Positions 16,284 to 31,227 of a DNA stretch of 64,000 nt are shown one piece after another. The position numbers were made by a program, and so were the translations under genes. Origin of the DNA: Aquamicrobium sp. (lineage in GTDB: Bacteria; Pseudomonadota; Alphaproteobacteria; Rhizobiales; Rhizobiaceae). Location of the stretch: assembly GCA_019739225.1 (NCBI GenBank), contig JAHHDT010000005.1, positions 62,001 to 126,000 of the forward strand, written 5' to 3'. The notes under the pieces are model-generated. The model saw nothing but the letters and a program-made list of their open reading frames with translations, had not been told where the DNA came from and searched no databases. Position 1 is the stretch's first letter, and each line of letters begins with the position of its first letter.

Positions 16284-16284
16284 G

Positions 16285-16650
16285 ATGAGCGTGTGCATCG
16301 CCGCGGCCGGCAAGACGCTGATGCTGGCGGCGAGCCTGTTCACGCTCTCCTGGGAGCACTCGGTCGAGAAAACCGCATGGCAGGAGGACTGGCTGGCAAC
16401 GCCCGCCGGCCTTCACGCGTTGCAGGCGCGCGTCAAGGGCTCGGGCGCCGGGATGGACCCGCCCGAGGGTTCGGTTCTCGATGATGGATGGTGGCGCTGG
16501 AAGCCGTCGATACCGCTACAGCCGCGGCTGGTGCTTGCCGCGTCGGGCGCTACTGCTTCGGGCTGGACTGTCTGTGCGGAGGGCCGGTGCGTCGAGGTCG
16601 GCGCTGACGCGGCGGAGCCTGTCGTCATCGAACCGTGCGGAAAGCCCTGA
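16285..16650 (+). CDS. DUF1850 protein of TAXI-TRAP locus
   Basis: A 121-residue protein with a short hydrophobic N-terminus, the FTLSWEHSVEKTAWQEDW segment and GSGAGMDPPEGS, both typical of DUF1850. DUF1850 genes are usually found beside TAXI-TRAP permease genes, as here, where it begins 1 base after the permease stop. The HSVE core suggests a small periplasmic or membrane-attached beta protein. Two cysteines in VCAEGRCVEV and a third in EPCGKP near the end may form a disulfide. The function is unknown; the neighbourhood points to a transport accessory. Confidence 0.85.
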   Translation: MSVCIAAAGKTLMLAASLFTLSWEHSVEKTAWQEDWLATPAGLHALQARVKGSGAGMDPPEGSVLDDGWWRWKPSIPLQPRLVLAASGATASGWTVCAEGRCVEVGADAAEPVVIEPCGKP

Positions 16651-16651
16651 C

Positions 16652-16801
16652 TTACTGGAAGCTGGCATCGGGATGCACGCGGCGGATGCGGGCGCAGGCA
16701 GGCCCCGGGCCGCGCATGTAGTGACGCTCCGGGCGGTAGCTCGGCATGAAAAATTCGCGCACCGAAATTGCGCGGCTGATGATGTGAGCCCAGACCGTCA
16801 T
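16652..16801 (-). CDS. Possible small basic protein
   Basis: A 49-codon frame beginning ATG-ACG-GTC (MTVWAHIISRAISVREFF) and rich in Arg, Tyr and Pro (PSYRPERHYMRGPGP), ending 1 base from the convergent DUF1850 stop. The ribosome site is weak. The composition is not that of a random GC-rich frame (several aromatic residues, ordered motif), and I have a vague recollection of similar short proteins in rhizobia, but I cannot name a family. Treat as tentative. Confidence 0.3.
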   Translation of the reverse strand: MTVWAHIISRAISVREFFMPSYRPERHYMRGPGPACARIRRVHPDASFQ

Positions 16802-17169
16802 GACCCGAATTTCCCGTCCTCTCGGATGTCCCTTCCGAATGGCGTCGATAGTAGCGCAGACCCGTGAATAAGCCGTGAACGCGTTGTTAACGGGTAGCTG
16901 TTTAGGGCGCGATCCGTGACGCAATTGCGGGTGATTCGCGGTTCTTTCGCGGCTGCATGACGATTGCCCACCCGTGTTGCATTTGCGCAACGCCTTTTCT
17001 CCCCTGACCCTCTGTCGAAAATTATGCCGATTGACCAGGACGACGCGGAACCGCCTCGGCGCTTCGACGTTGGAGAGGTGTCCGGACAGACACCGGCCCC
17101 TGCGTCAGTCGAATGGACGTCGGGAGCCAGCCGCCCCTTAAAGAAGAAGAAGCAAGAAAGGCTACAACG
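16802..17169. other. Intergenic region with no identified gene
   Basis: About 370 bases of slightly lower GC content between the possible small gene and the DUF892 gene. I see no convincing protein, structured RNA or strong promoter. The DUF892 promoter should lie in its right half. Confidence 0.5.
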
Positions 17170-17676
17170 ATGGGCATTTTTTCCAAGGACATCAAAACCA
17201 TGGACGATCTCTTCGTCCATACGCTCCGCGACATCTACTATGCGGAAAAGCAGATATTGAAGAACCTCCCCAAGATGATCGACAAGGCATCCAATGCCGA
17301 GCTTCGCAAGGGCTTCGAGAAGCACATGACGGAGACAGAGGGTCATGTCGAACGGTTGGAGCAGGTGTTCAAGATGCATGGCGTCGAGGCCAAGGCCGTA
17401 AACTGCCCGGCTATCGACGGCATTCTCAAGGAGGCCGACGAAATTGCCGGCGAGGTTGAGGACGACCGCGTGCTCGACGCGGCGCTGATCGCGGCCGGCC
17501 AGGCCGTAGAGCACTATGAAATGACGCGCTATGGAACGCTCGTCGCCTGGGCGAAGGAACTGGGACGCAACGACTGCGCCGCCATCCTTCAGAAGAACCT
17601 CGGCGAGGAGAAGGCGACCGACAAGAAGTTGACCGAGCTCGCCGAGAGCCGCGTCAACCTGCAGGCGGCCGAATAG
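17170..17676 (+). CDS. DUF892 / YciE-like ferritin-like protein
   Basis: A 168-residue four-helix-bundle protein of the DUF892 (YciE/YciF) family. It starts MGIFSKDIKTMDDLFVHTLRDIYYAEKQILKNLPKM, and Glu/His residues in the pattern E-x-x-x-H (TETEGHVERLE and GQAVEHYEMTRYG) are candidate di-iron ligands. Family members are induced by stress and stationary phase in enterobacteria, and their biochemical role is unclear. Preceded by AAAGG at a suitable distance. Ends before a strong terminator, so it is monocistronic. Confidence 0.9.
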   Translation: MGIFSKDIKTMDDLFVHTLRDIYYAEKQILKNLPKMIDKASNAELRKGFEKHMTETEGHVERLEQVFKMHGVEAKAVNCPAIDGILKEADEIAGEVEDDRVLDAALIAAGQAVEHYEMTRYGTLVAWAKELGRNDCAAILQKNLGEEKATDKKLTELAESRVNLQAAE

Positions 17677-17737
17677 ACCCCAGGGTCCACGAGTAGTACG
17701 CCGCAGCCGGGTTCCCCTCGCCTGGCAGCCGGCTTTC

Positions 17738-17776
17738 CGGCCCGCCGCTCTCCCATGCGGCGGGCCGACGCTTTTT
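17738..17776 (+). terminator. Rho-independent terminator after the DUF892 gene
   Basis: Perfect 11-base arms (CGGCCCGCCGC and complement), an 8-base loop, then ACGC and five T residues. It is 61 bases after the stop codon. Confidence 0.75.
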
Positions 17777-17856
17777 CCGATTGAGCCGCAGGACTTCGCG
17801 GGCGCAGCCAAACATGTCTATGATGGGCGTCGATGCACCGACGATGGAGGATGAAC

Positions 17857-18423
17857 ATGGCGGCGGTTCCGCCCGTTTGCGATTTTGGCTGGAAGGGGAT
17901 CGACGCGATCCTTCCCGGTGTGGATGGTAACGAGCATCAGCTTTCCGAGCATGTCGGCCCCGGCGGCCTCGTCGTGGCCTTCATCTGCAACCACTGCCCC
18001 TATGTGAAGGCGGTGATCGACCGCATCGTGCGCGATGCGCGAGACCTCAGCGCCCACGGCATCGGTTTCGTCGCGATCAACTCCAACGACGCCGACGCCT
18101 ATCCGGAAGACTCATTCGAGAACATGAAGGCGTTCTCGCGCCAGCATGGCATGACCTTCCCCTACCTCCACGACGAGGACCAGTCGATCGCGCGGGCCTA
18201 TGGCGCCGCATGCACGCCGGACTTCTTCGGCTTCAATGCCGACATGCGCCTTCAGTATCGCGGCCGGCTCGATGCCTCGCGCCGCGAGCAGGGGCCGGCC
18301 GACCTTCGCCGCGATCTCTACGAAGCGATGGTCAAGATCGCGCAGACGGGCGAAGGGCCGCGCGAACAGGTCGCCTCGGTAGGCTGCTCGATCAAGTGGA
18401 AGGACGGCGGCGACTGGGCCTGA
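17857..18423 (+). CDS. Thioredoxin-fold (AhpC/TSA-type redoxin) protein
   Basis: A 188-residue redoxin. The active-site motif is CNHCPYVK at about residues 45-52, with both cysteines present, after the strand GGLVVAFI. Later blocks include FVAINSNDADAYPEDSFENMKAF, LHDEDQSIARAYGAACTPDFF (a cis-Pro region with TPDFF) and a conserved C-terminal GCSIKWK. This is the common alphaproteobacterial thioredoxin-family protein annotated near peroxiredoxins, with unproven partners. GGAGG at 17846-17850 fits the ATG at 17857 better than the ATG at 17851. Cytoplasmic. Confidence 0.88.
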   Translation: MAAVPPVCDFGWKGIDAILPGVDGNEHQLSEHVGPGGLVVAFICNHCPYVKAVIDRIVRDARDLSAHGIGFVAINSNDADAYPEDSFENMKAFSRQHGMTFPYLHDEDQSIARAYGAACTPDFFGFNADMRLQYRGRLDASRREQGPADLRRDLYEAMVKIAQTGEGPREQVASVGCSIKWKDGGDWA

Positions 18424-18585
18424 GCCCGCAATGGCTCATCTGATAGCAGTTTTCATCACGCCGGCCTGAGCTGTCTGGAACGGTCGATGTCTTGCCCGTG
18501 GCGCTTTGGCCCGCGGCACGAAGCGACGATGCTGCCATTGAAAATATGATGGCGGGACCGCCGCCGAAAGGGATCGGAAAACGCC

Positions 18586-19818
18586 ATGGATGCCGCAGCG
18601 AACGCGAAGGCTCGGGCCGACATAGACGGCCGCTATGCCTGGACGAGGCTGCTCGTCTCGGTGCTGATCGCCACGATCGGCAGTGTCGGCATGTGGTCGG
18701 TCATCGTCGTCTTGCCGGCGGTCCAGGCGGAATTCGGCGTCGATCGTGGCGTCGCCTCGCTGCCCTATACCGCCACCATGATCGGCTTCGCCTTCGGCAA
18801 CGTCATGATCGGCAGGTTCGTCGACCGGGCCGGCATCCTGCTGCCGATGATGGTTGCGGCCGGCTCGCTCCTTGCAGGTTACGTGCTGGCAGCCATCGCA
18901 CCCTCCATCTGGCTGTTCGCGCTGCTGCAGGCACTGATCGGGTTCGGGGCGTCCGCCACCTTCGGCCCGCTCATCGCCGATCTCTCGCACTGGTTCGACC
19001 GTCGTCGCGGCGTTGCTGTCGCCGCCGCCGCGAGCGGCAACTATTTTGCCGGCGCGATCTGGCCGCTGGTGATGCAGTTTACGCTGCCCACCGAGGGCTG
19101 GCGTTTCACCTATATCGCGATCGGCATCTTCTGTGTGGTGACGATGGTGCCGCTGGCGCAGTTGCTGCGCCGCCGCGCGCCCTATGCCGAGCCGGAGTCA
19201 GTCGCTGCCACCGGCGTGGCGCATAAGCGCTCCATCGATCTCTCGCCGCGCGCGCTGCAATTGCTGCTGTGCCTTGCCGGCGTGGGCTGCTGCGTGGCGA
19301 TGTCCATGCCGCAGGTTCACATCGTCGCCTACTGCGTCGACCTTGGCTACGGCGTCGCGCGCGGATCGGAGATGCTGTCGCTGATGCTGGTCGGCGGCAT
19401 CGCGAGCCGCCTCGTTTCCGGTTTCCTGGCGGACTATATAGGGGGCGTGAAGACGCTGCTGATCGGCTCCGTGCTGCAATGCCTGGCGCTGTTCGCCTAC
19501 GTGCCGTTCGATGGCCTGGTCTCGCTCTATATCGTGTCCATGGTCTTCGGCCTGTCGCAGGGCGGCATCGTGCCGAGCTACGCCATGATCGTGCGCGAAT
19601 ATCTGCCGGCACGCGAAGCCGGCCAGCGCGTTGGCGTCGTCATCATGGCGACGATCGCCGGCATGGCTCTGGGCGGCTGGCTTTCAGGCTGGATCTACGA
19701 CCTCACCGGTTCCTACGCGGCCGCCTTCTGGAACGGGATCGGCTGGAACGTCATGAACATTTCGATCATGGTGCTGATCCTGCTCCGCAGCAGCCGACAG
19801 CGCCCAGTGCCGGCCTGA
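18586..19818 (+). CDS. MFS transporter, monocarboxylate/oxalate-type
   Basis: A 410-residue major facilitator protein with 12 predicted helices. The N-terminal half has the A-like loop GNVMIGRFVDRAG between helices 2 and 3 and GFGASATFGPLIADLSHWFDRRRGVAVA, a pattern of the oxalate/formate and monocarboxylate MFS groups. The C-terminal half repeats it as VSGFLADYIGG. It lies just before an RpiR-controlled catabolic run on the same strand but is separated by about 70 bases holding a promoter-like element, so it may or may not belong to that pathway. Substrate unknown. Confidence 0.85.
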   Translation: MDAAANAKARADIDGRYAWTRLLVSVLIATIGSVGMWSVIVVLPAVQAEFGVDRGVASLPYTATMIGFAFGNVMIGRFVDRAGILLPMMVAAGSLLAGYVLAAIAPSIWLFALLQALIGFGASATFGPLIADLSHWFDRRRGVAVAAAASGNYFAGAIWPLVMQFTLPTEGWRFTYIAIGIFCVVTMVPLAQLLRRRAPYAEPESVAATGVAHKRSIDLSPRALQLLLCLAGVGCCVAMSMPQVHIVAYCVDLGYGVARGSEMLSLMLVGGIASRLVSGFLADYIGGVKTLLIGSVLQCLALFAYVPFDGLVSLYIVSMVFGLSQGGIVPSYAMIVREYLPAREAGQRVGVVIMATIAGMALGGWLSGWIYDLTGSYAAAFWNGIGWNVMNISIMVLILLRSSRQRPVPA

Positions 19819-19828
19819 CGGAATCTGA

Positions 19829-19874
19829 TTGACACAAACGTTTCATTGTAGCTTTACTGCGTGACAAGTGTTTC
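19829..19874 (+). promoter_or_regulatory. Candidate promoter and operator of the RpiR gene
   Basis: A perfect TTGACA (19829-19834) overlaps the first of two direct repeats of ACAA-N3-TTTC (19834-19844 and 19864-19874), 30 bases apart. A -10 box is not clear (CTTTAC at 19852 at 17-base spacing). The repeats flank the expected start of transcription and could be bound by the regulator encoded 17 bases downstream. Confidence 0.4.
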
Positions 19875-19890
19875 GTAGGGCGGAAGCGTC

Positions 19891-20778
19891 GTGAGCCTTC
19901 AGGAGATTTGGCAGCGCATCGAATCCCGCTACGGCGCGTTCTCGCCGCAGCTTCGTCGCGCCGCCCGTTTCGTCCGAGAGAACCCGCAGGATGTCGCCCT
20001 GCATTCGCTGCGCACCGTGTCGCGAGAGGCAGGCGTCTCGCCGACATCGATGACCCGTCTGATGCAGGCGCTCGACTTCGACAATTGGGACGCGTTTCAG
20101 GCAGATCATCGCGCATGGCTCACCGCAGGCAGGCAGGGTGCGTTCTCGGATCGTGCCGACCGCGTCATCAGCGGATCGCGGGGGCCGGGCGCAGAAGACC
20201 TGCTGCTCGACGCGATGGCCGAGGCCGAGGGGGACAACGTTTCCCGTGCGCTCGCTTCGCAGGCGCGACGCAGCCTTGTCCAGGCCGCCGGCATGCTGGT
20301 CGCCGCGCCCACGGTGGCAATCGCCGGCATCAGAAGCTGCTTCCCCGTCGCCTTCAGCCTGCACTACTCGCTATCGCTGTTCATGCCGCATGTGCGGCTG
20401 ATGACTGGCATCGGAAGCGCTCCGCTCGACGAGCTGCATCATCTGCGCGAAAACGATTGTCTGGTGGTGGTCTCGGTCGCGCCCTACAGCCGCGAGACCG
20501 TCGATGTTGCGCGCCATGCACGGAACTCGGGCGTTCGCGTCGTCGCCATTACCGACGGTCCGCTGAGCCCGATTGCCCGGCTAGCCGACGCCACGCTTGT
20601 CGCGGCTAATGAAAGCCCGGCCCACATCGCCTCGCCCATCGGGCCGATCGCTGCCGCCCAGGCGCTGGCCATTTTGGTGCTTGCGCGCGCCGGCGATGGC
20701 GCGCTGGATGCGTTGCGCCGCCGCGAGGCCACCTTCGAAGCCATCTCCGCCTATCTGCCAGAAGAGCCTAAGCCATGA
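19891..20778 (+). CDS. MurR/RpiR family transcriptional regulator (HTH-SIS)
   Basis: A 295-residue regulator with the RpiR layout: N-terminal helix-turn-helix, residues about 1-77 (LRTVSREAGVSPTSMTRLMQAL), then a SIS sugar-phosphate-type ligand domain from about 110 to 260 (VAIAGIRSCFPVAFSLHYSL, VVVSVAPYSRETVDVARHARNSGVRVVAITDGPLSPIARLADATL). Begins at GTG with a GGCGGAAG site. Overlaps the aminotransferase by 4 bases (ATGA), so it is the first gene of a catabolic operon and probably controls it. The ligand is not necessarily a sugar, because the operon encodes amino-acid chemistry. Confidence 0.92.
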   Translation: MSLQEIWQRIESRYGAFSPQLRRAARFVRENPQDVALHSLRTVSREAGVSPTSMTRLMQALDFDNWDAFQADHRAWLTAGRQGAFSDRADRVISGSRGPGAEDLLLDAMAEAEGDNVSRALASQARRSLVQAAGMLVAAPTVAIAGIRSCFPVAFSLHYSLSLFMPHVRLMTGIGSAPLDELHHLRENDCLVVVSVAPYSRETVDVARHARNSGVRVVAITDGPLSPIARLADATLVAANESPAHIASPIGPIAAAQALAILVLARAGDGALDALRRREATFEAISAYLPEEPKP

Positions 20779-22127
20779 GCGCGAACCACACCCGCATCCT
20801 GCATCGTGAACCGTCCCGCGACTTGCCCGTCGCCACGAGCGGCGATGGACCATTCGTCATCGACAGCGCGGGCAAGCGCTATCTGGACGCTTCCGGCGGC
20901 GCGGCCGTGTCCTGCCTCGGACACAGCGAGCGTCGCGTGATTGACGCGATCAAGGAGCAGCTCGACCGCCTGCCCTACGCACACACCGGCTTCTTCACCA
21001 ACGAGCCGGCGGAGGCGCTTGCCGATCATCTGATCGAACGCGCGCCGGAAGGGCTCGGCCATGTCTATTTCGTCTCGGGCGGCTCCGAGGCCAACGAGAC
21101 GGCGATGAAGCTCGCGCGGCAATATTTCTTCGAACGCGGCGAGACAGGCCGGCGGCACTTCATCGCGCGCCGCCAGAGCTATCACGGCAACACCATTGCG
21201 GCGCTCTCGGTGGGCGGCAATGCGGGACGGCGTGCGATCTACGAGCCGATCCTGCTGCCGGCCAGCCACATCGCGCCCTGTTTCGAATACCGCCATCGTC
21301 GATCGGACGAGGCATCTGAGGAATACGGCATCCGCGCCGCCGACGAGCTGGAGGCCGAAATCCTCAGGCTCGGGCCGGAAACCGTTATCGCCTTCATTGC
21401 CGAAACGGTCGTGGGCGCGACCGCGGGAGCCGTGCCGCCGGCGCCGGGCTACTTCCGTCGAATCCGCGAGATATGCGACCGCTATGGCGTCCTTCTGATC
21501 CTTGATGAAGTCATGAGCGGCATGGGTCGCACCGGCACGCTCTACGGCTGCGAGCAGGACGGCATCGCGCCCGACATTCTCACCTGTGCAAAGGGGCTTG
21601 GAGCCGGCTATCAGCCCATCGGTGCGACGATCCTCTCGGAACGCATCTTCGATACGATCACGGGCGGCTCGGGGGCGTTCCAGCACGGCTTCACCTATAT
21701 CGGCCATGCCACGGCAGCCGCCGGCGCTTTGGCCGTCCAGCGTGTCATCGAGGAAGACGGGCTCCTTGAAAACTGCCGCCTCATGGGCGCGAGACTGAAA
21801 GAGCGTCTCGGCGAGGCGTTCGCAAGCCATCCCCGTATCGGCGATATTCGCGGCCGTGGCCTGTTCATCGGCGTCGAACTGGTCGAAGATCGCGAGACGA
21901 AGAAGCCTTTTGATCCCGCCCTGCGCTTGCATGCGCGCATCAAGGCTGCCGCGATGGAGGAGGGATTGATGGTCTATCCGGCTGGGGGAACGGTCGACGG
22001 CAGGGCCGGCGATCATGTTCTGGTCGCCCCGCCATTCATCATCGGCGAGGATCATGTCGGCATGATCGTCGAGAAGCTCTCGCGCGCGGTTGCTGCGGCA
22101 ACCGCTGCTGTAGGCATCGCCGCCTGA
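20775..22127 (+). CDS. Class III (PLP) aminotransferase
   Basis: A 450-residue omega-aminotransferase-type enzyme. The PLP Schiff-base Lys273 is in TCAKGLGAGYQPIGA, with Asp244 in LLILDEVMSGMGRTG holding the pyridine nitrogen and the phosphate-binding SGGSEANETAMKLARQ at about 101-116. The YHGNT block is also present. Such enzymes move amino groups from omega- or beta-amino acids, amines or similar compounds to a keto acid. The gene overlaps the RpiR gene by 4 bases and the BKACE gene by 1 base (TGATG). Its product would therefore be expected to feed the BKACE enzyme, which needs a beta-keto acid; this points to a beta-amino acid substrate, by inference. Confidence 0.93.
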   Translation: MSANHTRILHREPSRDLPVATSGDGPFVIDSAGKRYLDASGGAAVSCLGHSERRVIDAIKEQLDRLPYAHTGFFTNEPAEALADHLIERAPEGLGHVYFVSGGSEANETAMKLARQYFFERGETGRRHFIARRQSYHGNTIAALSVGGNAGRRAIYEPILLPASHIAPCFEYRHRRSDEASEEYGIRAADELEAEILRLGPETVIAFIAETVVGATAGAVPPAPGYFRRIREICDRYGVLLILDEVMSGMGRTGTLYGCEQDGIAPDILTCAKGLGAGYQPIGATILSERIFDTITGGSGAFQHGFTYIGHATAAAGALAVQRVIEEDGLLENCRLMGARLKERLGEAFASHPRIGDIRGRGLFIGVELVEDRETKKPFDPALRLHARIKAAAMEEGLMVYPAGGTVDGRAGDHVLVAPPFIIGEDHVGMIVEKLSRAVAAATAAVGIAA

Positions 22128-22978
22128 TGGCCCATCCTTTCGCCATCGCCGTCGCGCCGAACGGGGCGCGTCGTACAAAAGCCGATCATCCGCGCCTGCC
22201 GATGGCTGCGGACGAGATCGCGCGCGATGCGGCAGAGGCGCTGGCCGCCGGCGCGGCGATGATTCATCTTCATGTGCGCGACGGCAACGGAGCGCACACG
22301 CTGGACGCGGCGCTTTACCGTGAGGCAGTCGCAGCCGTGCGTAAGGCCGTGGGGGACGATCTGGTCGTGCAGGTCACCACCGAGGCTGTCGGGCGCTACA
22401 CGCCTGACGAGCAGGTTGCCGTCATCGACGCGTTGCAGCCGGAATCCGTATCGATCGCGCTGCGCGAAATCCTGCCCGAGAACGGTGACGAGCGCCTGGC
22501 CGCCTCGCTCTTCGAGCGTATGGAGAAAGCCGGCACACTACATCAGATCATCATCTACGAGGCGGCCGAACTGGCGCGCCTTGACGCGTTTGCCGCGCGC
22601 GGTCTGCTGCCGGATGGGCCGCTTGCAGTGCTCGCGGTGCTCGGCCGGTACACCGAGCAGGGCGCCACGGATGGCGAGCTCGCCGCGTTCCTTTCCGCCG
22701 GCATCGATCGGCATCAGTGGATGTTGTGCGCCTTCGGGCCACGCGAGACGGAATTCATGGCGCGCGCGGCGCGCGCAGGCGGCCACGCCCGTGTCGGTTT
22801 CGAGAACAATCTCTGGTTGCCCGATGGGTCGTTGGCGTCGGATAACGCCGCAATCGTCGCTGCGACGGTGGCGGCGGCAGGAGATTGCGATCGTGGGGTT
22901 GCAAAGGCCGCGGATTTGCGCAGGCTTTGGCGAGTACCCGCATCGGCCGCCAGCGAGATTTCGGCAGCCTCCGGGTGA
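22127..22978 (+). CDS. BKACE family beta-keto acid cleavage enzyme (DUF849)
   Basis: A 283-residue TIM-barrel enzyme of the 3-keto-5-aminohexanoate cleavage enzyme (Kce)/BKACE family. It condenses a beta-keto acid with acetyl-CoA and splits it to acetoacetate and an acyl-CoA, using zinc. Visible are the zinc pair His47 and His49 in [11 protein letters not shown], the N-terminal APNGARRT, and the C-terminal [11 protein letters not shown] block containing the third zinc ligand, Glu. In the characterised Kce this Glu is followed by an Asp; here it is Asn, so the active-site subgroup may differ. The gene is coupled (1-base overlap) to the aminotransferase. The true substrate is unknown. Confidence 0.92.
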
Positions 22979-23067
22979 CCGAACAACCGACCCTCGCGCA
23001 CGGAGGGATCCGGGTTATATCAACCAACCCGCTAAGGGGAACGTGCAAGGAGCAAGGAGACGCAAAT

Positions 23068-24048
23068 ATGAAACCCAGAAACCTGATTGGCCTCGGTCTT
23101 GCGATGGCAATGGGCGGCTCGCTGGCCGCCGGTAGCGCCGTCGCGCAGGAGCAGCAGTTCATCTCCGTCGGCACCGGCGGCGTCACCGGCGTCTACTACC
23201 CGGTCGGCGGCGCGATCTGCCGCCTGATGAACCAGACCCGCCGCGAACACGGCATCCGCTGCTCGGTCGAATCGACTGGCGGTTCGGTCTTCAACGTCAA
23301 CGCGATCAAGGGCGGCGACCTCGAGTTCGGCGTCGTGCAGTCGGACGTGCAGTACAACGCGTTCAACGGCGAGGCGAACTTTGCCGAGGGTGGCGCACAT
23401 GAGGACCTGCGTTCGGTGTTCTCGCTTCATGCCGAGCCGCTGACCGTCGTGGCGCGTTCCGAAGCAGGCGTGGCCGGCTTCGACGACCTCAAGGGCAAGC
23501 GCGTCAACATCGGCAATCCCGGCTCCGGCCAGCGTGCGTTGATGGACCTGCTGATCGCAGAGAAGGGCTGGACCAACGCCGACTTCGCGCTCGCCGCCGA
23601 GCTGGCACCGGCCGAACAGAGCTCCGCGCTCTGCGACAACAACATCGACGCCTTCGCCTACACGGTCGGTCATCCGGCGGGCGCTATCCAGGAAGCCACA
23701 ACGACTTGCGACAGCGTGATCGTTCCGGTCGAGGGTGAGGCCGTCGAAAAGCTGGTCACGGACAATCCGTACTACTTCAAGGCTGTGATCCCCGGTGGCA
23801 TGTATCGCGGCACCGACAATGACGTGAACACCTTCGGTGTCGGCGCCACGGTCGTGACCTCGGCTACCGTCGACGACGAAGTCGTCTATCAGTTCGTCAA
23901 AGCCGTCTTCGACGACTTCGACAACTTCAAGAGCCTGCATCCGGCGCTTGCCAACCTGACGCCGGAAGACATGGTCGGCCAAGGCAACTCCGCGCCGGTC
24001 CATCCGGGCGCCGAGAAGTACTACAAGGAGAAGGGCTGGCTCCAGTAA
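23068..24048 (+). CDS. TAXI-family TRAP transporter substrate-binding protein (second system)
   Basis: A 326-residue periplasmic receptor with a Sec signal peptide (ending GSAVAQE, about residue 23) and the TAXI start [23 protein letters not shown]. The blocks [27 protein letters not shown] and [20 protein letters not shown] match the family, and it ends [15 protein letters not shown]. It carries two cysteine pairs (at about 50/63 and 191/208), unlike the first TAXI protein. It follows the BKACE gene by 89 bases on the same strand and is preceded by AAGGAG. In context, it probably captures the amino acid or a derivative used by the aminotransferase/BKACE pair. Confidence 0.93.
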
Positions 24049-24058
24049 AACCAGAAAT

Positions 24059-24087
24059 TCGGGGCGTCCGATTGCCGGGCGCCCCGA
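24059..24087 (+). terminator. Hairpin between second TAXI binding-protein and permease genes
   Basis: Twelve-base arms (TCGGGGCGTCCG against CGGGCGCCCCGA, one G-T wobble) with a 5-base loop, 10 bases after the stop codon, followed by TTTC. It is probably a stabilising or attenuating hairpin, as after the other binding-protein genes. Confidence 0.55.
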
Positions 24088-24139
24088 TTTCAATCAACAT
24101 GGCCCATTAGGGCAATGTGCGCGTCAGGAGGGGACCCAG

Positions 24140-26812
24140 ATGGCGAACGATCCGAAGACTGCCGGCAAGGCAACAACGGCCATGACCGACGACGAACTTC
24201 AGGATCTCGTGGCATCGAGTGATACCGGCGCGCGCAATCCGGTCGGCACGGCCGGTCTTGTGATCGCAGGTGTTGCGCTGTGCTGGTCGCTGTTCCAGCT
24301 TTACATCGCTTCGCCGCTGCCCTTCATGCTGTCTCGCATGACCGGTCTGCAACTCGTCTTCAACGACACGCAGACGCGCTCCATCCACCTGGCATTCGGT
24401 GTGTTCCTCGCCTTCATGGCCTTTCCGGCCCTGTCCAGCAGCCCGCGCGACCGAATCCCTCTGCTCGACTGGGTTCTGGGCATTCTGGCTGCGTTCTGTG
24501 CGCTCTACATCTTCATCTTCTACCGTGACCTCGCCCAGCGCCCAGGCCTGCCAATCACGCAGGACCTTGTTGCCGCCGGGCTCGGCATGGTTCTCCTGCT
24601 CGAGGCGACACGACGAGCCCTCGGCCCGCCGCTGGTGATCGTCGCACTGGTGTTCCTGGCCTATGTGTTCTTCGGTTCGTCGACCTTCGTGCCTGACATC
24701 ATCCGCTGGGGTGGCGCATCGTTTGCGCGCGCCATGGACCAGATGTGGCTGTCGACCGGTGGCGTCTTCGGTGTTGCGCTGGGTGTTTCGACGGCCTTTG
24801 TTTTCCTGTTCGTGCTGTTCGGCTCGATGCTCGACCGCGCAGGCGCCGGCAACTTCTTCATCAAGCTCGCTTTCGCGCTGCTGGGGCACCTCAAGGGCGG
24901 CCCTGCCAAGGCGGCCGTGCTGGCTTCGATGATGACCGGCCTTATATCGGGCTCCTCGATCGCGAACGTGGTGACGACCGGCACCTTCACGATCCCGCTG
25001 ATGAAGCGCGTGGGCTTCTCCGCCGAAAAGGCCGGGTCGGTCGAAGTCGCAAGCTCGGTCAACGGTCAGATCATGCCGCCGGTCATGGGCGCGGCCGCTT
25101 TCCTGATGGTCGAATATGTCGGCATTTCCTACCTGCAGGTCATCAAGCACGCTTTCCTGCCGGCGGTGGTCTCTTACATCGCTCTGCTCTACCTCGTGCA
25201 TCTCGAGGCGGTGAAGAACGACATGCCCTCGCTGCCCAAGCGGGTGCAGCACCCGGCCAGGATCGCACTGCTGCGTGCAGGTCTGGTGACCCTGTCGATC
25301 ATCATCCTGGCAGGCGCGATCTACTACGCGATCAACATGGTGAAATGGCTTCTGCCGGCAATTTCCGCGCCGGTGCTGCTGCTTGCCCTGCTGGCGGCCT
25401 ATGTGTTGCTGATCTGGTATGCCGCCAAGCAGCCCGATCTGGAACTCGACGATCCCAATGCGCCCGTGGTGGAGTTGCCGATCGCGTCCGAGGTGATCAA
25501 GACGGGGCTGCATTATCTGCTGCCGCTGTTCGTGCTTGTCTGGTTCCTGATGATCGAGCGCCGTTCGCCGGGGCTGTCGGCGTTCTATGCGGTCATCCTG
25601 CTGATCATCATCATGCTCACCCAGAAGCCGTTGAAGGCCATGTTTAGGGGCATGCAAAGCGCTGAGACCAGCGCCGCGATGCGCGAAGGCTTCGACGATC
25701 TCATCGTCGGCATGATTTCCGGCGCGCGCAACATGATCGGCATCGCCTGCGCGACGGCCGCAGCGGGCATCATCGTCGGCACGGTCACGCTGACCGGCAT
25801 CGGGCAGGTGATGGCGGAGTTCGTCGAATTTCTCTCCGGCGGCAACATCTTCCTGATCCTCGTCTTCACCGCGATAATCAGCCTCATCCTGGGCATGGGC
25901 CTGCCGACCACGGCGAACTACATCGTCGTCTCCTCGCTAATGGCGCCGGTGATCGTGGAGCTGGGCGCCGCCAACGGCGTCCTCATCCCGCTGATCGCGG
26001 CCCACATGTTCGTCTTCTATTTCGGCATCATGGCCGACGTCACGCCACCGGTGGGGCTTGCTTCCTTCGCGGCGGCGGCGGTTTCGGGTGGCGATCCCAT
26101 CAAGACGGGCTTCACCGCGTTCTTCTATTCGCTGCGCACCGTGCTGTTGCCGTTCATCTTCGTCTTCAACACCGATCTGCTGCTGATAGACGTGAGCTGG
26201 GCCGGGGCGATCTGGGTGGTTATCCAGGCAACGCTTGCGATGCTGATATTTGCAGCCGCCACGCAGGGCTTTTTCATGGCCCGCTCGCGCCTCTGGGAAT
26301 CGGCAGCACTTCTGCTCGTCACCTTTATGCTGCTGCGGCCGGGCTTCTTCCTCGACCTCGTGCAGCCGCCCTACGATCAGGTGGAGCCAACGCGCCTGTT
26401 CGAGGTGATGGAAGGTGAGCCGGACGGTGCGCAGGCCCGCCTCGTCATCACCGGCCCCGACTTCGACAATCCCGACACGCTGGTCGAGCGCACGATGGCG
26501 TTCGACCTCGGACCTCGGGGCGAAAGCGGCGAGGCCCGTTTCGAGAACGCCATGGGCATGAATGTCACCGTCCAGGATGACAAGGCGATCCTTGACGAGC
26601 CGCTGGACATGAACAGCCTTGCCGGCCGCACCCTGTCGAACCTGGATTTCTACGATCCGGAACGTCCGGTTCAGATCACTGCCATCGAAGTGACCACCGA
26701 GCGGATGCCGCGCGAGATCTTCTACATTCCGGCGCTGCTGCTCTTCGGGCTGGTCGTCTTCACCCAGCGCCGCCGCGGCGGGACGCTGTTCGGCAATCCG
26801 AAAGCCGCGTAG
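24140..26812 (+). CDS. TRAP transporter fused permease with C-terminal DUF3394-type domain
   Basis: An 890-residue fused DctQM permease of the TAXI type. The transport core has the same signatures as the first system (SGSSIANVVTTGTFTIPLMKRVGF, SSVNGQIMPPVMGAAAF, MGLPTTANYIVVSS, FYFGIMADVTPPVGLASFAA). It is about 185 residues longer than the permease at 14166 because of a soluble C-terminal part (about 740-870, with the PPYDQVEPTRLFEVMEGEPDGAQ region), which matches the DUF3394 extension of many TAXI permeases, and ends with a hydrophobic helix and a basic tail. Preceded by GGAGGGGACC. Confidence 0.93.
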   Translation: MANDPKTAGKATTAMTDDELQDLVASSDTGARNPVGTAGLVIAGVALCWSLFQLYIASPLPFMLSRMTGLQLVFNDTQTRSIHLAFGVFLAFMAFPALSSSPRDRIPLLDWVLGILAAFCALYIFIFYRDLAQRPGLPITQDLVAAGLGMVLLLEATRRALGPPLVIVALVFLAYVFFGSSTFVPDIIRWGGASFARAMDQMWLSTGGVFGVALGVSTAFVFLFVLFGSMLDRAGAGNFFIKLAFALLGHLKGGPAKAAVLASMMTGLISGSSIANVVTTGTFTIPLMKRVGFSAEKAGSVEVASSVNGQIMPPVMGAAAFLMVEYVGISYLQVIKHAFLPAVVSYIALLYLVHLEAVKNDMPSLPKRVQHPARIALLRAGLVTLSIIILAGAIYYAINMVKWLLPAISAPVLLLALLAAYVLLIWYAAKQPDLELDDPNAPVVELPIASEVIKTGLHYLLPLFVLVWFLMIERRSPGLSAFYAVILLIIIMLTQKPLKAMFRGMQSAETSAAMREGFDDLIVGMISGARNMIGIACATAAAGIIVGTVTLTGIGQVMAEFVEFLSGGNIFLILVFTAIISLILGMGLPTTANYIVVSSLMAPVIVELGAANGVLIPLIAAHMFVFYFGIMADVTPPVGLASFAAAAVSGGDPIKTGFTAFFYSLRTVLLPFIFVFNTDLLLIDVSWAGAIWVVIQATLAMLIFAAATQGFFMARSRLWESAALLLVTFMLLRPGFFLDLVQPPYDQVEPTRLFEVMEGEPDGAQARLVITGPDFDNPDTLVERTMAFDLGPRGESGEARFENAMGMNVTVQDDKAILDEPLDMNSLAGRTLSNLDFYDPERPVQITAIEVTTERMPREIFYIPALLLFGLVVFTQRRRGGTLFGNPKAA

Positions 26813-26825
26813 GGGAGGTACGACC

Positions 26826-27260
26826 ATGTACAAGAACATCCTGGTCTCGGTCGATCTCGGCGACGCCGAAAACGAAACGCGCACGATTGGCACCGCCGTC
26901 GACTATGCCAGGCTCTTTGGCGCCACCCTGCATGTCATGACGGTGGTGCCCGATTATGGCCTTTCCATCGTCGGCGGGTTCTTTCCGAAGGGGCACGAGC
27001 AGGAGGCGATCGACCACGCCAACAAGGCGTTACACGAGTTCACCGGCAAGCACGTGCCGGCCGAGGTCAAGCATCGCCATATCGTCGGTCACGGCTCGAT
27101 CTATCGCCAAATCCTGCACTATGCAGGTGTGGTGAAGGCCGATCTGATCGTGCTCGCCGCGGGACGAGAGGGGCCTGAGGACTACCTGATCGGTCCGAAC
27201 GCCGCTCGCGTCGTACGCCATTCCAAGACGTCCGTGCTGGTCGTCCGCGATAACGATTGA
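26826..27260 (+). CDS. Universal stress protein (TRAP-associated UspA)
   Basis: A 144-residue UspA-fold protein. It starts MYKNILVSVDLGDAENETRTIGTAVDYARLFGATLHVMTVVPDYG and has the C-terminal nucleotide-binding region IVLAAGREGPEDYLIGPNAARVVRHSKTSVLVVR. A Usp protein, TeaD, is encoded with the TeaABC TRAP system of Halomonas and modulates transport, so its position 13 bases after the permease suggests the same role here. The ATG has GGGGAGGT upstream. Last gene of the aminotransferase-BKACE-TRAP run. Confidence 0.9.
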   Translation: MYKNILVSVDLGDAENETRTIGTAVDYARLFGATLHVMTVVPDYGLSIVGGFFPKGHEQEAIDHANKALHEFTGKHVPAEVKHRHIVGHGSIYRQILHYAGVVKADLIVLAAGREGPEDYLIGPNAARVVRHSKTSVLVVRDND

Positions 27261-27372
27261 CCATACGGGGAGCAGCCGAAAGGCACGGATTGACTGTGGG
27301 TGCCTGCGCGGCCAGAGTTGATCGCTGCGGCGCGGCGATCATTTGTTTCTCGCCGGTCCTGCACAGGTACCC

Positions 27373-28329
27373 ATGAGCACAGTTCGCGATACCACATCAT
27401 CCAGGCTCGACGATGCGGCCCGAGCCGGCTGGCTCTACTATGTTGCCGGCAACACGCAGGACCAGATTGCGACCAAGCTCGGCGTCTCGCGCCAGTCTGC
27501 GCAACGCCTTGTATCGCTGGCGGTTTCCGAAGGGCTGGTGAAGGTACGCATCGACCATCCGATTGCGAACTGCCTCCAACTGGCCTCCCGGTTGCGCGAG
27601 CGGTTTGGGCTTGATCTTGTGGAGGTCGTGCCCAGCGACCCCGGATCGGCTTCGACAACGCTTGGCGTCGCGGAAGCCGCTTCCGCCGAGATCGAGAGGC
27701 GGCTGTCTTCACAGCAACCGATTGTGATGGCGCTCGGCACCGGGCGCACGCTGAAGGCCGCCATCGAAAAGCTGCCTGCGATGGAATGCCAGCAGCACAA
27801 GGTCGTGTCGCTGACCGGCAATATCGCGCCGGACGGGTCGGCTGCTTTCTACAATGTCGTCTTCACCATGGCCGACAAGGTCAAGTCGCGCTCTTTCCCG
27901 ATGCCTCTGCCGGTCATCGCCTCGTCGCCGGAAGAGCGCGCCCTGCTGCACGGTCAGGAACTCATCCGCGCGACGATGACACTCGCCGCCCAGGCTGACG
28001 TTACCTTTGTCGGCGTTGGCGATCTCGGGCCGGAGGCGCCGCTCTACCAGGACGGTTTTATATCCAAGGACGAGCTCGAGGCGTTGCGTAAGGCCGGCGC
28101 AGTCGCCGAGATCGTCGGCTGGGCGTTCGACAGCAAGGGCAGACCGGTGGAGGATGTCATCAACGACCGCGTGGCCTCGACACCGATCCCCTCGCGGGAT
28201 TCGTCCGAGGTGATCGCGCTCGCCATGGGCGAGCGAAAGCTGCCCGGCATTTTCGCTGCGGTCAGCGGTCGGCTCGTCAATGGCCTGATTACCGATGAGC
28301 GCACGGCGTCCGCACTTCTTGCCATGTAG
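27373..28329 (+). CDS. SorC/DeoR-type sugar-binding transcriptional regulator
   Basis: A 318-residue SorC-family regulator. The N-terminal helix-turn-helix (AGNTQDQIATKLGVSRQSAQRLVSLAVSEGLVKVRI) is followed by a sugar-binding domain with ALGTGRTLKAAIE, KVVSLTGNIAPDGSAAF and FVGVGDLGPEAPLYQDGFISKDEL, then GRLVNGLITDERTASALL. Regulators of this type with these blocks stand beside polyol ABC operons in rhizobia, and it probably controls the smo/mtl operon that starts 1.3 kb downstream, past the DUF1127/LysR pair. The ATG at 27373 fits the homologous length better than an in-frame TTG at 27343. Confidence 0.88.
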   Translation: MSTVRDTTSSRLDDAARAGWLYYVAGNTQDQIATKLGVSRQSAQRLVSLAVSEGLVKVRIDHPIANCLQLASRLRERFGLDLVEVVPSDPGSASTTLGVAEAASAEIERRLSSQQPIVMALGTGRTLKAAIEKLPAMECQQHKVVSLTGNIAPDGSAAFYNVVFTMADKVKSRSFPMPLPVIASSPEERALLHGQELIRATMTLAAQADVTFVGVGDLGPEAPLYQDGFISKDELEALRKAGAVAEIVGWAFDSKGRPVEDVINDRVASTPIPSRDSSEVIALAMGERKLPGIFAAVSGRLVNGLITDERTASALLAM

Positions 28330-28332
28330 CGG

Positions 28333-28521
28333 CTAGATTCGTCTTCGCGGATCGTGGCTGTCGATCAGGCCGATGTCCCTTTGCATGTGTTCCGTCAGAT
28401 GGCGGATTTCTACCCTTCTCGTCTTCTTGCGCGTCAATCGCGACAGAATGGCATGCGCCAGGCTTGCCCAGCTTGACCTTGTGCGCTCGGGATGTCGCAT
28501 CGGGGATACTATTGTAACCAT
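28333..28521 (-). CDS. DUF1127 small protein
   Basis: A 62-residue basic protein. The C-terminal half, with Arg/Lys-rich residues and then RHLTEHMQRDIGLIDSHDPRR, matches DUF1127 (about 40-50 residues, ending in the DIGL motif). DUF1127 proteins in alphaproteobacteria have been linked to phosphate, polyamine and stress responses and to RNA metabolism. It is divergent from the LysR gene, with about 106 bases between the two starts, and its 3' end lies only 3 bases from the SorC-type gene, which is convergent with it. Confidence 0.8.
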   Translation of the reverse strand: MVTIVSPMRHPERTRSSWASLAHAILSRLTRKKTRRVEIRHLTEHMQRDIGLIDSHDPRRRI

Positions 28522-28613
28522 GAGGGGGCCGCTTTCCTGAAATCCTGCTTATGCGTCAGTGTTTCAGATCGTCCCAAAAGGCTCTAAAATCTAACAAAAC
28601 ATCGATCATTTAG

Positions 28614-28630
28614 CATAAGGAATACTTATG
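28614..28630 (+). promoter_or_regulatory. Inverted repeat overlapping the LysR start codon (LysR-type box)
   Basis: CATAAG-N5-CTTATG, a perfect 6-base inverted repeat that contains a T-N11-A motif, as LysR regulators bind. The last three bases are the ATG of the LysR gene. It is in the divergent region with the DUF1127 gene. The repeat is seen directly; the binding role is inferred. Confidence 0.5.
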
Positions 28631-29524
28631 TATCGTAACCTGCCGCCACTTTCTGCCGTGCGCGTTTTCGAGGCGGCGGCGCGTCACGGCAGCTTCACGC
28701 GCGCTGCCGACGAGCTCGGCATGACGCAGGCGGCGGTGAGCTATCAGATCAAGGCGCTTGAAGAGCGCGTTGGGGCGCCGCTCTTCCTGCGGCGGCCCCG
28801 TCAGGTCGAGCTGACGGAGATGGGACTTCGTCTCGCCGCAGCATCGACGCAGGCACTCGACGTCCTCTCCGCAGCCTTCGGCACGATGCGTGACAATGTT
28901 GCGGGCAAGCTGACGATCAGCACCGTGCCCACGCTCGCGACCAACTGGCTGGCGCCGAGGCTGGGTCTGTTCCAGCTTGCCAATCCGTCGATCGCGGTCC
29001 GGCTGGAAACGTCGCCGCGCTACGTCGACTTCAGCCGGGAAGATGTGGATGTGGCGATCCGTGTCGGCAACGGCAACTGGCCCGGCCTCGTTGCTCATCG
29101 GCTGCTGCCAACGATTTTCACCCCGATGCTCAGTCCGGAGCTTGCAGCCTCGATCGGCGGCATCAACGAACCTGCCGATCTTCTGCGCCTGCCGATCCTG
29201 ACCCCGACCGATCCTTGGTGGTCGCAGTGGTTGACGGCCGCGGGCGTCTCTCCGGAGGGACTGAAGGGCCGTCCACAGAACGAGATGGGCTCGCAGGCCA
29301 ACGAGGCGCGCGCGGCGATTGCGGGTCAGGGCGTCGCTATCCTGACTCCATTTTTCTTCACGAGCGAACTCGCTTCGGGCCGCCTCATTCAGCCTTTCGA
29401 TCTCCTGTGGGAGGACAAGGCGTCTTTCTGGCTGGTCTATCCACAGGGGCGCCGCAACCTGCCGAAGATCAGCGCCTTCCGATCGTGGATCCTGGCAGAG
29501 GCTGCGGCGTCACAATCGGATTGA
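28628..29524 (+). CDS. LysR family regulator, GcvA-like
   Basis: A 298-residue LysR-type regulator. The N-terminal winged helix-turn-helix is textbook (LPPLSAVRVFEAAARHGSFTRAADELGMTQAAVSYQIKALEERVGAPLFLRR), followed by a periplasmic-binding-like effector domain with the GcvA-type LTISTVPTLATNWLAPRLGLFQ start. The residues after LETSPRYVDFSREDVDVAIRVG also fit GcvA relatives. It is divergent from a DUF1127 gene; in Brucella, the LysR regulator VtlR controls DUF1127 genes, so a similar link is possible. The start ATG overlaps a LysR box. Confidence 0.92.
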   Translation: MYRNLPPLSAVRVFEAAARHGSFTRAADELGMTQAAVSYQIKALEERVGAPLFLRRPRQVELTEMGLRLAAASTQALDVLSAAFGTMRDNVAGKLTISTVPTLATNWLAPRLGLFQLANPSIAVRLETSPRYVDFSREDVDVAIRVGNGNWPGLVAHRLLPTIFTPMLSPELAASIGGINEPADLLRLPILTPTDPWWSQWLTAAGVSPEGLKGRPQNEMGSQANEARAAIAGQGVAILTPFFFTSELASGRLIQPFDLLWEDKASFWLVYPQGRRNLPKISAFRSWILAEAAASQSD

Positions 29525-29556
29525 GGCAACCCCGCATCGAGGTGTCCGTCGCCTGA

Positions 29557-29585
29557 GATTCGATGCTGCGCCGCAGCATCGAATC
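29557..29585 (+). terminator. Long perfect inverted repeat between LysR gene and smoE
   Basis: Thirteen-base perfect arms (GATTCGATGCTGC and complement) with a 3-base loop, 32 bases after the LysR stop. No T run follows. It could terminate the LysR transcript or be a protein-binding site upstream of the smoE promoter at 29590. Confidence 0.5.
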
Positions 29586-29589
29586 CGGC

Positions 29590-29641
29590 TTGACTTTCGG
29601 CAAGCTAAACTGAATATTTGCCCAACAAACTAGCAATTGCT
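29590..29641 (+). promoter_or_regulatory. smo operon promoter and candidate SorC operator
   Basis: TTGACT and AATATT are 17 bases apart (29590-29618), a plausible promoter. The stretch right after the -10 holds TTGC-N11-GCAA (29618-29636) and the 10-base palindrome AGCAATTGCT (29632-29641), placed where a repressor would block initiation. The SorC-type regulator 1.3 kb upstream is the natural candidate to bind it. Confidence 0.45.
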
Positions 29642-29666
29642 CATCATGGTTCTAGGGAGGATATCC

Positions 29667-30977
29667 ATGAAACTGAGATCTGCGCTGCTCGGCGCATGCT
29701 CCGTCGTCGCCCTGTCGGGCACTGCGCTCGCCGAGACGATCACCATCGCAACTGTCAACAACGGCGACATGATCCGCATGCAGCGGCTCGCCGAAGACTT
29801 CACGGCCAAGCATCCGGATATCGAGCTGCAGTGGGTGACGCTGGAGGAGAACGTTCTGCGCGAGCGGGTCACCACCGACATCGCCGCCAGCGGCGGGCAG
29901 TATGACGTGATGACCATCGGCAATTACGAGGTGCCGATCTGGGCAAAGCAGGGCTGGCTGCTCGAACTCAACGGTCTCGGCGACGACTACGACGTCGACG
30001 ACCTCCTGCCCGCCATTCGCGGCGGCCTTTCCGTCGACGGCAAGCTCTATGCTGCGCCGTTCTACGGCGAGTCGGCGATGATCATGTACCGCACCGACCT
30101 GTTCGAGGGTTCGGGCCTCGAAATGCCGGAATCGCCGACCTGGGAATTCATCGGAGAGGCTGCCCGCAAGATCAAGGCGGACAACCCGGATGTGAACGGC
30201 ATCTGCCTGCGCGGCAAGGCCGGCTGGGGCGAGAACATGGCGTTCATCACCGCCCTGGTGAACTCCTATGGCGGCCGCTGGTTCGACGAGAACTGGCAGC
30301 CTCAGTTCGATCAGCCGGAGTGGAAGAATGCCTTCCAGTTCTATGTCGACCTGATGAACGATGCCGGCCCGTCGGGCGCCTCGTCCAACGGCTTCAACGA
30401 GAACCTGACGCTCTTCCAGCAGGGCAAGTGCGCCATGTGGATGGACGCGACGGTCGCGGCATCCTTCGTCTCAAATCCGGAAGATTCCACCGTGGCCGAC
30501 AAGGTCGGCTATGCGATCTTCCCCGATACCGGCAACGGCAATCACGGTCACTGGCTGTGGTCCTGGAACCTGGCGGTGCCGGCGAGCTCGGCCAAGGCCG
30601 ACGCGGCGCAGACCTTCATCGCCTGGGCGACGAACAAGGCCTATACCGAGCTGGTTGCGGAGAAGGAGGGCTGGGCCAACGTACCGCCCGGCACCCGCAC
30701 CTCGCTCTATGAGAACGAGGCCTACAAGGAAGCCGCGCCCTTCGCGGAGCCAACCCTTGCTGCCATGAACGCTGCCGACATCACCAATCCGTCGGTGAAG
30801 CCGGTGCCCTACACAGGTGGCCAGTTCGTCGCGATCCCGGAATTCCAGGGGCTCGGCACGACGGTCGGCCAGCTTTTCTCGGCGGCTCTCGCCGGTCAGA
30901 TGTCCGTCGATGACGCGCTGGCGCAGGCGCAGAATGTCGCGACCCGCGAAATGACCCGCTCCGGCTACATCAAATAG
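29667..30977 (+). CDS. smoE: Polyol ABC transporter substrate-binding protein SmoE
   Basis: A 436-residue periplasmic sugar-binding protein (family 1) with a Sec signal peptide ending GTALAE (about residue 22). The mature sequence TITIATVNNGDMIRMQRLAEDFTAKHPDIELQWVTLEENVLRERVTTDIA is the start typical of the sorbitol/mannitol-binding proteins. It is the first gene of an eight-gene polyol operon with the same order as Sinorhizobium smoEFGKS-mtlK. It binds sorbitol and/or mannitol for the SmoFGK importer. Preceded by AGGGAGGA. A hairpin and a repeat element separate it from smoF. Confidence 0.9.
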   Translation: MKLRSALLGACSVVALSGTALAETITIATVNNGDMIRMQRLAEDFTAKHPDIELQWVTLEENVLRERVTTDIAASGGQYDVMTIGNYEVPIWAKQGWLLELNGLGDDYDVDDLLPAIRGGLSVDGKLYAAPFYGESAMIMYRTDLFEGSGLEMPESPTWEFIGEAARKIKADNPDVNGICLRGKAGWGENMAFITALVNSYGGRWFDENWQPQFDQPEWKNAFQFYVDLMNDAGPSGASSNGFNENLTLFQQGKCAMWMDATVAASFVSNPEDSTVADKVGYAIFPDTGNGNHGHWLWSWNLAVPASSAKADAAQTFIAWATNKAYTELVAEKEGWANVPPGTRTSLYENEAYKEAAPFAEPTLAAMNAADITNPSVKPVPYTGGQFVAIPEFQGLGTTVGQLFSAALAGQMSVDDALAQAQNVATREMTRSGYIK

Positions 30978-30994
30978 GCTTCCTCCCGAAGCCT

Positions 30995-31020
30995 GGCCGT
31001 CCGGCTCCGGCCGGGCGGCC
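30995..31020 (+). terminator. Hairpin after smoE
   Basis: Ten-base arms (GGCCGTCCGG against CCGGGCGGCC, one G-T wobble), with a 6-base loop, 17 bases after the smoE stop. A stabilising or attenuating hairpin between binding-protein and permease genes. Confidence 0.5.
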
Positions 31021-31037
31021 GCCCTTTCGGAAGATCA

Positions 31038-31169
31038 TGCGTCCTTCGAGGCTCGCTGCGCTCGCACCTCAGGATGAGGACTGCCGTGCATCAGCCCCAC
31101 AAGCGGTTGGCTCGATCAAACTACCTCCCTCATCCTGAGGTGCGAGCGCAGCGAGCCTCGAAGGACGCA
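31038..31169. repeat. Palindromic repeat element, copy 1 (42-base perfect inverted arms)
   Basis: Two arms, 31038-31079 and 31128-31169, are exact reverse complements over 42 bases and flank 48 bases of unique sequence. The arm starts TGCGTCCTTCGAGGCTCGC and ends with CCTCAGGATGAGG. The same family occurs again at 38758-38900. These are REP-like elements common in rhizobial intergenic DNA. It sits inside the smo operon between smoE and smoF without a coding role. Confidence 0.85.
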
Positions 31170-31227
31170 CTTTCCGGCAAATCTCGCCGGACGATACGGA
31201 ACAGGAACCCAGCAAGGGACCCCTGCC

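Follow-up and report, generated by a model that had tools for sequence, protein, structure and literature searches.

The L-carnitine route pairs a carnitine dehydrogenase with a beta-keto acid cleavage enzyme (BKACE, DUF849 family) that cleaves dehydrocarnitine. Kat, a class III aminotransferase (AT), and the DUF849 enzyme Kce belong to one pathway, a variant form of lysine fermentation (PMC3149608). For TRAP transporters of the TAXI type, the receptor VcGluP has been reported to bind L-glutamate with a Kd of 0.065 μM, with mutation of Y45 or Q93 costing the most (PMC11574862), and the TAXI-TRAP system of Cereibacter sphaeroides has been reported to be required for sodium-dependent growth on L-glutamate and likely to lie in a five-gene operon with three further genes (PMC12632250). 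Here, we describe an operon-like run of genes in Aquamicrobium sp. (assembly GCA_019739225.1, contig JAHHDT010000005.1) that brings these kinds of parts together. It occupies positions 19,891 to 27,260 of a stretch of 64,000 nucleotides (positions 62,001 to 126,000 of the contig, forward strand; the window hereafter) in a genome of 5.35 Mb and seven contigs, and it encodes an RpiR-type regulator, a class III AT of the PRK07483 type, a DUF849 protein, a TAXI receptor, a fused TRAP permease, and a universal stress protein (USP).

The operon probably imports and degrades a glutamate-like acidic amino acid. Its transport unit is like those of VcGluP and C. sphaeroides in receptor type, in binding residues, and in a fused permease with a C-terminal extension; unlike them, it is linked to AT and DUF849 genes. 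The DUF849 protein shares with Kce and the BKACEs (2y7d, 8rip, and 3no5) its Pfam family, the TIM-barrel fold, and residues H47, H49, E226, and R222, but differs in its active-site signature. As in the L-carnitine route, an enzyme that oxidizes the beta carbon stands beside a DUF849 enzyme, although here it is mostly an AT, and the expected substrate is acidic, not positively charged. The parts are of known kinds, while the combination and the DUF849 subfamily are without published description in the literature searched; among the papers listed in that search, none dealt with an AT-DUF849-TAXI module or with beta-glutamate breakdown.

A TAXI receptor of the glutamate type

We found the window receptor matches VcGluP (8s4j) with 413.9 bits, with 176 of 297 aligned residues identical. 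The key ligand residues Y45 and Q93 of VcGluP are both kept; where VcGluP has S40, D157, and M201, the window receptor has Gly, Gln, and Thr. Among 50 receptors (that of the window and 49 from the loci described below), 46 keep all of Y45, S75, Q93, H123, and E125; the four exceptions are the second receptor of locus L060, the receptors of L073 (near a contig end) and L075, and an unrelated upstream receptor of L011. Hence, an acidic amino acid is favored as the substrate over 3-aminobutanoate or an aminated aromatic acid, the two examples offered by the first-pass annotation of this DNA. Those examples are further disfavored by a GlnHPQ-type importer, which stands in place of the TAXI-TRAP system in eight loci; the one GlnH protein tested scored 419.7 bits and so passes its cut-off of 303.

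The GlnHPQ-type importer was seen together with a C45 autoproteolytic hydrolase beside the AT and DUF849 genes in L097, L099, L121, L123, L127, L130, and others. These loci come from rhizobia, Shinella, and Paracoccus, and some have a second RpiR gene; the arrangement would suit uptake of an amide or N-acyl form.

The claw domain of the TAXI TRAP permease is described as C-terminal and periplasmic (PMC11574862); in the window permease, DUF3394 spans residues 690-879. By analogy with L128 and L010, we suspect that rsp_3804-3802 of C. sphaeroides, which are unnamed in the main text of PMC12632250, encode a USP, an AT, and a DUF849 protein in some order. A tblastn search of plasmids with the TAXI receptor gave no Cereibacter among the best 40 of 96 records.

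A second TAXI receptor, with a fused TRAP permease and a DUF1850 protein, is encoded just upstream (window positions 12954-16650). At positions 93 and 125, this receptor (12954-14075) carries Leu and Asn in place of the glutamate-type residues; judged by these positions, its ligand is probably different.

The DUF849 subfamily lacks canonical active-site residues

We compared the window DUF849 protein and its subfamily (89 aligned rows) with five canonical members, namely Kce, 3chv, 3no5, and two proteins encoded in the window's own genome. The metal ligands H47, H49, and E226, as well as R222, are kept in 89 of 89 rows. In the same 89 rows, relative to the canonical members, Gly86 is changed to Glu, Ser/Thr114 to Glu, Glu142 to Ile, and Asp227 to Asn, and Cys is found at 201 (window numbering). 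The window protein itself therefore has Ile, Asn, and Glu where the canonical BKACE residues Glu142, Asp227, and Gly86 would stand. Mostly kept within the subfamily are Arg15 (87/89), Arg113 (82/89), Gln140 in place of Glu (88/89), Arg174 (86/89), and Tyr175 (88/89). This signature is the same whatever the partner, that is, in loci with the AT, in loci with a dehydrogenase, and in loci with neither. In Kce, we take Glu14, Glu143, and Asp231 to serve substrate binding and catalysis, with Glu14 holding the amino group. From their positions in the alignment, the Arg residues at 15, 113, and 174 could hold an extra carboxylate.

The predicted model of the window DUF849 protein (mean pLDDT 88.4, with the loop 13-16 that holds Arg15 least certain) has a TIM-barrel fold, and its best match is Kce 2y7e (Z 28.7, rmsd 3.1, 263 aligned residues). 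Other DUF849 structures lie within about 3 Z units of 2y7e, including the cis-epoxysuccinate hydrolase (CESH) 5zmu (Z 26.2), and ObcA (4nnc) is a looser match (Z 21.6). These two relatives in fold, CESH[D] and ObcA, both act on acidic substrates, and ObcA has an extra N-terminal part. CESH[D] is reported to keep two of Kce's three metal ligands, with Glu14 as the third (PMC6429283), whereas the window protein keeps the third ligand, E226, and has Ala at position 14 (in its own numbering, which is not matched to that of CESH).

The first-pass annotation had the DUF849 protein cleave a beta-keto acid with acetyl-CoA. Because the whole subfamily is without the residues common to the five canonical members, this cleavage is not to be assumed. 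Of the seven published DUF849 groups, G6 and G7 are given as not BKACE (PMC4922564), and the window subfamily may or may not resemble these. A true BKACE, which would use acetyl-CoA to convert the product of the AT, a beta-keto acid, to acetoacetate and an acyl-CoA, is possible but on balance rather doubtful. It would agree with the Pfam family, the fold, and the kept metal ligands, and with the enzymes for activating acetoacetate that the genome encodes; in addition, a Tyr thought to be important in BKACEs (PMC12871164) is kept in 86 of 89 rows and counts toward BKACE-like chemistry, and deoxyribonate breakdown pairs a dehydrogenase with a BKACE by the same logic (PMC6365646). It is opposed by the Ile and Asn that replace the canonical Glu and Asp and by the Glu at positions 86 and 114 in every row, and profile scans found no gene for handling an acyl-CoA within the operon.

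In annotated plasmid records, the subfamily is mostly named '3-keto-5-aminohexanoate cleavage protein'. Because the active-site residues differ, this name is unsupported, and even a negative assay of the proposed reaction would serve to correct it.

Gene content is conserved and gene order varies

With E-values up to 1e-35, the DUF849 protein had matches in 55 of 385 genomes of the class and in 32 of 398 genomes of the phylum, with the window's own genome counted in both. We assembled 88 loci of the DUF849 subfamily: seven (L005-L011), 40 from the class sample (fetched from the 54 other genomes with a match), five from the genus, 20 from the phylum sample (of 34 rows), and 16 from plasmids (of 112 records). 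The AT paralogue region L094, which has no DUF849 gene, and the short-flank loci L012-L048 were excluded. The 88 loci are not independent, since L089/L006, L090/L009, and L099/L130 are near copies and L011 is from the window's own genome, and fixed BLAST score limits mean that RpiR and USP genes are undercounted.

An AT of the PRK07483 type is present in 66 of the 88 loci, and 40 of these 66 also have the TAXI receptor and permease. The remaining AT-bearing loci comprise eight with the GlnHPQ-type importer and C45 hydrolase, one with the C45 hydrolase alone, and 17 with no complete importer, although a TAXI gene is still found in four of the last (L073, L075, L086, and L101). The 22 loci without the AT divide into seven with a 3HCDH-type dehydrogenase, two with a BhcC-like protein, one with the TAXI receptor and permease, and 12 with none of these. 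For the class sample alone (n = 40), the AT was found in 32 loci, the TAXI receptor with the permease in 22, any TAXI gene in 25, a recognized RpiR gene in 16, and GlnQ in one.

Gene content is kept across other genera and orders, while order and strand vary. For example, L010 has the order TAXI-permease-USP-DUF849-AT, and in L096 and L099 the AT and RpiR genes lie on the strand opposite to DUF849. Hence, content that is kept despite rearrangement indicates a functional unit rather than chance, and the five-gene order noted on first inspection recurs elsewhere more faithfully as a set of genes than as an order. The wider neighbors vary (MlaE transport, DUF2336, IlvD, a short-chain dehydrogenase/reductase, a zinc alcohol dehydrogenase, and aromatic-ring genes) and indicate no single substrate.

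Dehydrogenases stand beside the DUF849 gene at some loci

Amino groups at positions other than alpha are the usual targets of class III ATs. In six loci (L100, L103, L105, L110, L111, and L129), we found that the gene of the DUF849 subfamily has a gene for a 3HCDH-type protein as its immediate, same-strand neighbor; in a seventh, L120, the dehydrogenase gene lies more than 4 kb off and on the other strand. Four of the six adjacent loci are clean exchanges of the AT for a dehydrogenase. Hence, if this exchange is genuine, one active site is served by two kinds of enzyme able to oxidize a beta carbon, and this is the best support for the reasoning about the AT. The earlier proposal that the AT makes a beta-keto acid gains from the six loci and loses from two of them, which also carry another class III AT.

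The dehydrogenases of L110 and L129 are best matched by carnitine dehydrogenase models of NCBIfam (260 and 279 bits, below the cut-offs of 592 and 414, respectively), and that of L100 by another dehydrogenase model (212 bits, with a cut-off of 500); that of L103 had no NCBIfam match at the E-value used. A quickly built tree, many of whose forks are open, requires 4 changes of the dehydrogenase label compared to a shuffled mean of 6.8, and 13 of the AT label compared to 19.9; independent origins of the pairing with a dehydrogenase or an AT are no more than suggested.

Other genes were also seen at the position next to the AT or DUF849 gene. In L083, L086 (domains tested), and L087, the gene immediately 5' of the AT or DUF849 gene encodes an oxidase with FAD (DAO) and GCV_T domains. 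The TAXI units of L053 and L140 likewise have an oxidase gene nearby, in L140 by its annotation as a GCV_T protein. This oxidase may act on a methylated form of the amino acid. In L076, the gene just before DUF849 encodes a pyridoxal phosphate protein that scored 456 bits against BhcC (3-hydroxy-D-aspartate aldolase), under the cut-off of 690, and a homologue is present in L081.

The oxidase directly upstream in L083, L086, and L087 and the BhcC-like protein of L076 and L081 would also suit an ordinary use of L-glutamate, in which the TRAP system imports L-glutamate and the AT and DUF849 protein take part in a side branch that handles glutamate or a modified (hydroxylated, methylated, or D-form) glutamate. 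Moreover, VcGluP was measured with L-glutamate as its ligand, and L-glutamate is also the compound whose use for growth is tied to the C. sphaeroides TAXI-TRAP system (PMC11574862, PMC12632250). We consider such a use unlikely, as this route needs no zinc lyase. In addition, the dehydrogenase partner favors beta chemistry, and class III ATs, as noted above, usually act off the alpha position.

A reversed order of steps was also weighed, in which the DUF849 enzyme would act first and the AT would then deaminate a beta-aminoacyl-CoA. The precedent is Kat, a class III AT which, with 2-oxoglutarate, converts 3-aminobutyryl-CoA into acetoacetyl-CoA in the fermentation variant that uses Kce (PMC3149608). 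We regard this order as very improbable here, since Kat, which acts on a CoA ester after the DUF849 step, is HemL-like (PMC3149608), whereas the window AT is PRK07483-like. Profile scans recognized no other gene of lysine fermentation in the operon. Glu14 of Kce, with its presumed role for the amino group, aligns with Arg15 here.

Proposed pathway

Our preferred scheme, to which we give somewhat less than an even chance, is that an acidic beta-amino acid is converted to a beta-keto acid, which then undergoes a non-canonical DUF849 reaction. The TAXI-TRAP system would import the acidic amino acid, and the RpiR regulator would control the operon. The AT would pass the beta-amino group to an alpha-keto acid, leaving a beta-keto diacid, and the zinc-dependent DUF849 enzyme would split this product, either decarboxylating it or using some variant of the acetyl-CoA reaction. 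What the sequences show directly is the gene content, its packing and conservation, the enzyme families, the glutamate-type residues of the receptor, and the DUF849 signature; the substrate and the chemistry are inferred from these. The simplest candidate is beta-glutamate (3-aminoglutarate), which would yield 3-oxoglutarate and then acetoacetate and CO2; beta-glutamate is known as an osmolyte of methanogens and a few bacteria (PMC1224877). That the substrate is beta-glutamate and the reaction a decarboxylation, both together, is in our estimate unlikely. 3-Oxoglutarate also decarboxylates spontaneously.

The acetoacetate would be activated by an acetoacetyl-CoA synthetase or a CoA-transferase encoded elsewhere in the genome. 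Matches to both kinds were found in the window's own genome (1019 bits for the acetoacetyl-CoA synthetase and 339.7 bits for a subunit of the 3-oxoacid CoA-transferase type). The acetyl-CoA hydrolase family PF13336 had three matches in this genome, none near the operon, and is uninformative.

The scheme can be made more specific, as a dedicated route for beta-glutamate or a similar compound in which the DUF849 subfamily would be a distinct zinc enzyme able to cleave beta-keto diacids with no need of acetyl-CoA, such as a 3-oxoglutarate decarboxylase, and would be reused with beta-hydroxyacid dehydrogenases in other bacteria; we give this form a low probability. If the general scheme is true, it would explain what a widespread TAXI-TRAP unit is for, give one more reaction to an enzyme family already mixed in function, and point to acidic beta-amino acids as nutrients.

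Several observations weigh against the general scheme. The known ligand of a glutamate-type receptor is L-glutamate, which is an alpha-amino acid. The TAXI unit is present without a recognized AT or DUF849 gene in L137 (Sinorhizobium), where a DUF849 gene lies about 19 kb away on the same replicon, in L140, and, as the receptor alone, in L138. L136 has the TAXI unit with only a GabT-annotated aminotransferase at the edge, and L139 has the TAXI unit and an AT of the PRK07483 type with no DUF849 gene in the stretch. Hence, the importer is modular. The DUF849 gene, too, is without any counted partner in 12 of the 88 loci, three of them with an MFS carrier. At the dehydrogenase loci, a different class III AT (35% identical) lies directly upstream in L110 and L111, and IlvD or TctC neighbors at some loci point to other substrates. 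On the tree, the changes that the starred branches make necessary number only one for the dehydrogenase label and three for the AT label, so that several origins are not demonstrated.

Operon layout and neighboring genes

Genes were called by Pfam and NCBIfam profile scores (Table 1). The profile matches bear out the gene kinds (for the probable RpiR-type regulator, by its SIS domain), the strand, and the outer coordinates given by the first-pass annotation, and the close packing from RpiR to USP is operon-like, with successive spacings of -4, -1, about 89, 91, and 13 bases. Among the gene coordinates, the start of the TAXI gene needed revision: the longest open reading frame begins at 22885, but by inspection of the sequence the likelier start is the ATG at 23068, which lies behind AAGGAG.

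Table 1. Features of the operon and its flanks (window positions).
Feature	Coordinates	Strand	Evidence and remarks
MFS carrier	18586..19818	+	MFS_1 147.5 bits; 72 bases 5' of RpiR
RpiR-type regulator	19891..20778	+	SIS 49.1 bits (over cut-off); HTH_6 23.4 bits (under cut-off of 28.3)
Class III AT, PRK07483 type	20775..22127	+	Aminotran_3 308.6 bits; NF005685/PRK07483 747.1 bits (cut-off 485)
DUF849/BKACE-family protein, changed active site	22127..22978	+	PF05853 221.7 bits (cut-off 24.8)
TAXI-family TRAP receptor, glutamate type	23068..24048	+	TRAP_TAXI 354.3 bits (cut-off 84.35)
Fused TRAP permease	24140..26812	+	TRAP_fused 675.1 bits; DctM; C-terminal DUF3394 173.4 bits
USP	26826..27260	+	Usp 80.4 bits
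Terminator-like hairpin	27319..27341	+	10 pairs, T-rich tail; directly 3' of USP
SorC-type regulator	27343-28329		Next after hairpin

The hairpin may mark the end of the operon. Because the hairpin scan gave eight such sites compared to 6.4 expected by shuffling, the support for this one is its position only. The promoter scan gave one sigma-70-like site compared to 1.8 expected and is uninformative.

The MFS carrier is possibly part of the unit. A carrier 74% identical to that of the window is encoded directly before the DUF849 gene in L009, L090, and L092, which come from close relatives, with no AT or TAXI gene beside it; genomes G004 and G007 do have an AT of the PRK07483 type elsewhere. 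The SorC-type regulator is also found in L005, L006, L007, and L011, in the genus of the window's own neighborhood, and in L089. The closest named relative found is Mesorhizobium sediminum, in which all eight genes are present and 97-100% alike.

Second copy of the operon and AT paralogues

We found a second copy of the operon on contig C2 (166.6 kb). Where C2 was sampled, it runs collinear with C5, with 92-99% identity. The samples compared (window positions 12063-32063 and other stretches; L011 and L131-L133) aligned over 20.0 kb and, in three further samples, over 19.5, 17.2, and 16.1 kb. Hence, rather than a local gene duplication, the C2 copy probably reflects a redundant haplotype, the presence of a second strain in the assembly, or a single very large duplication.

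The window's own genome also encodes a third AT of the PRK07483 type (61% identical), in L094 (G000:C5:674000-693000), where it is followed by an overlapping gene for a HemL-like aminomutase and no DUF849 gene.

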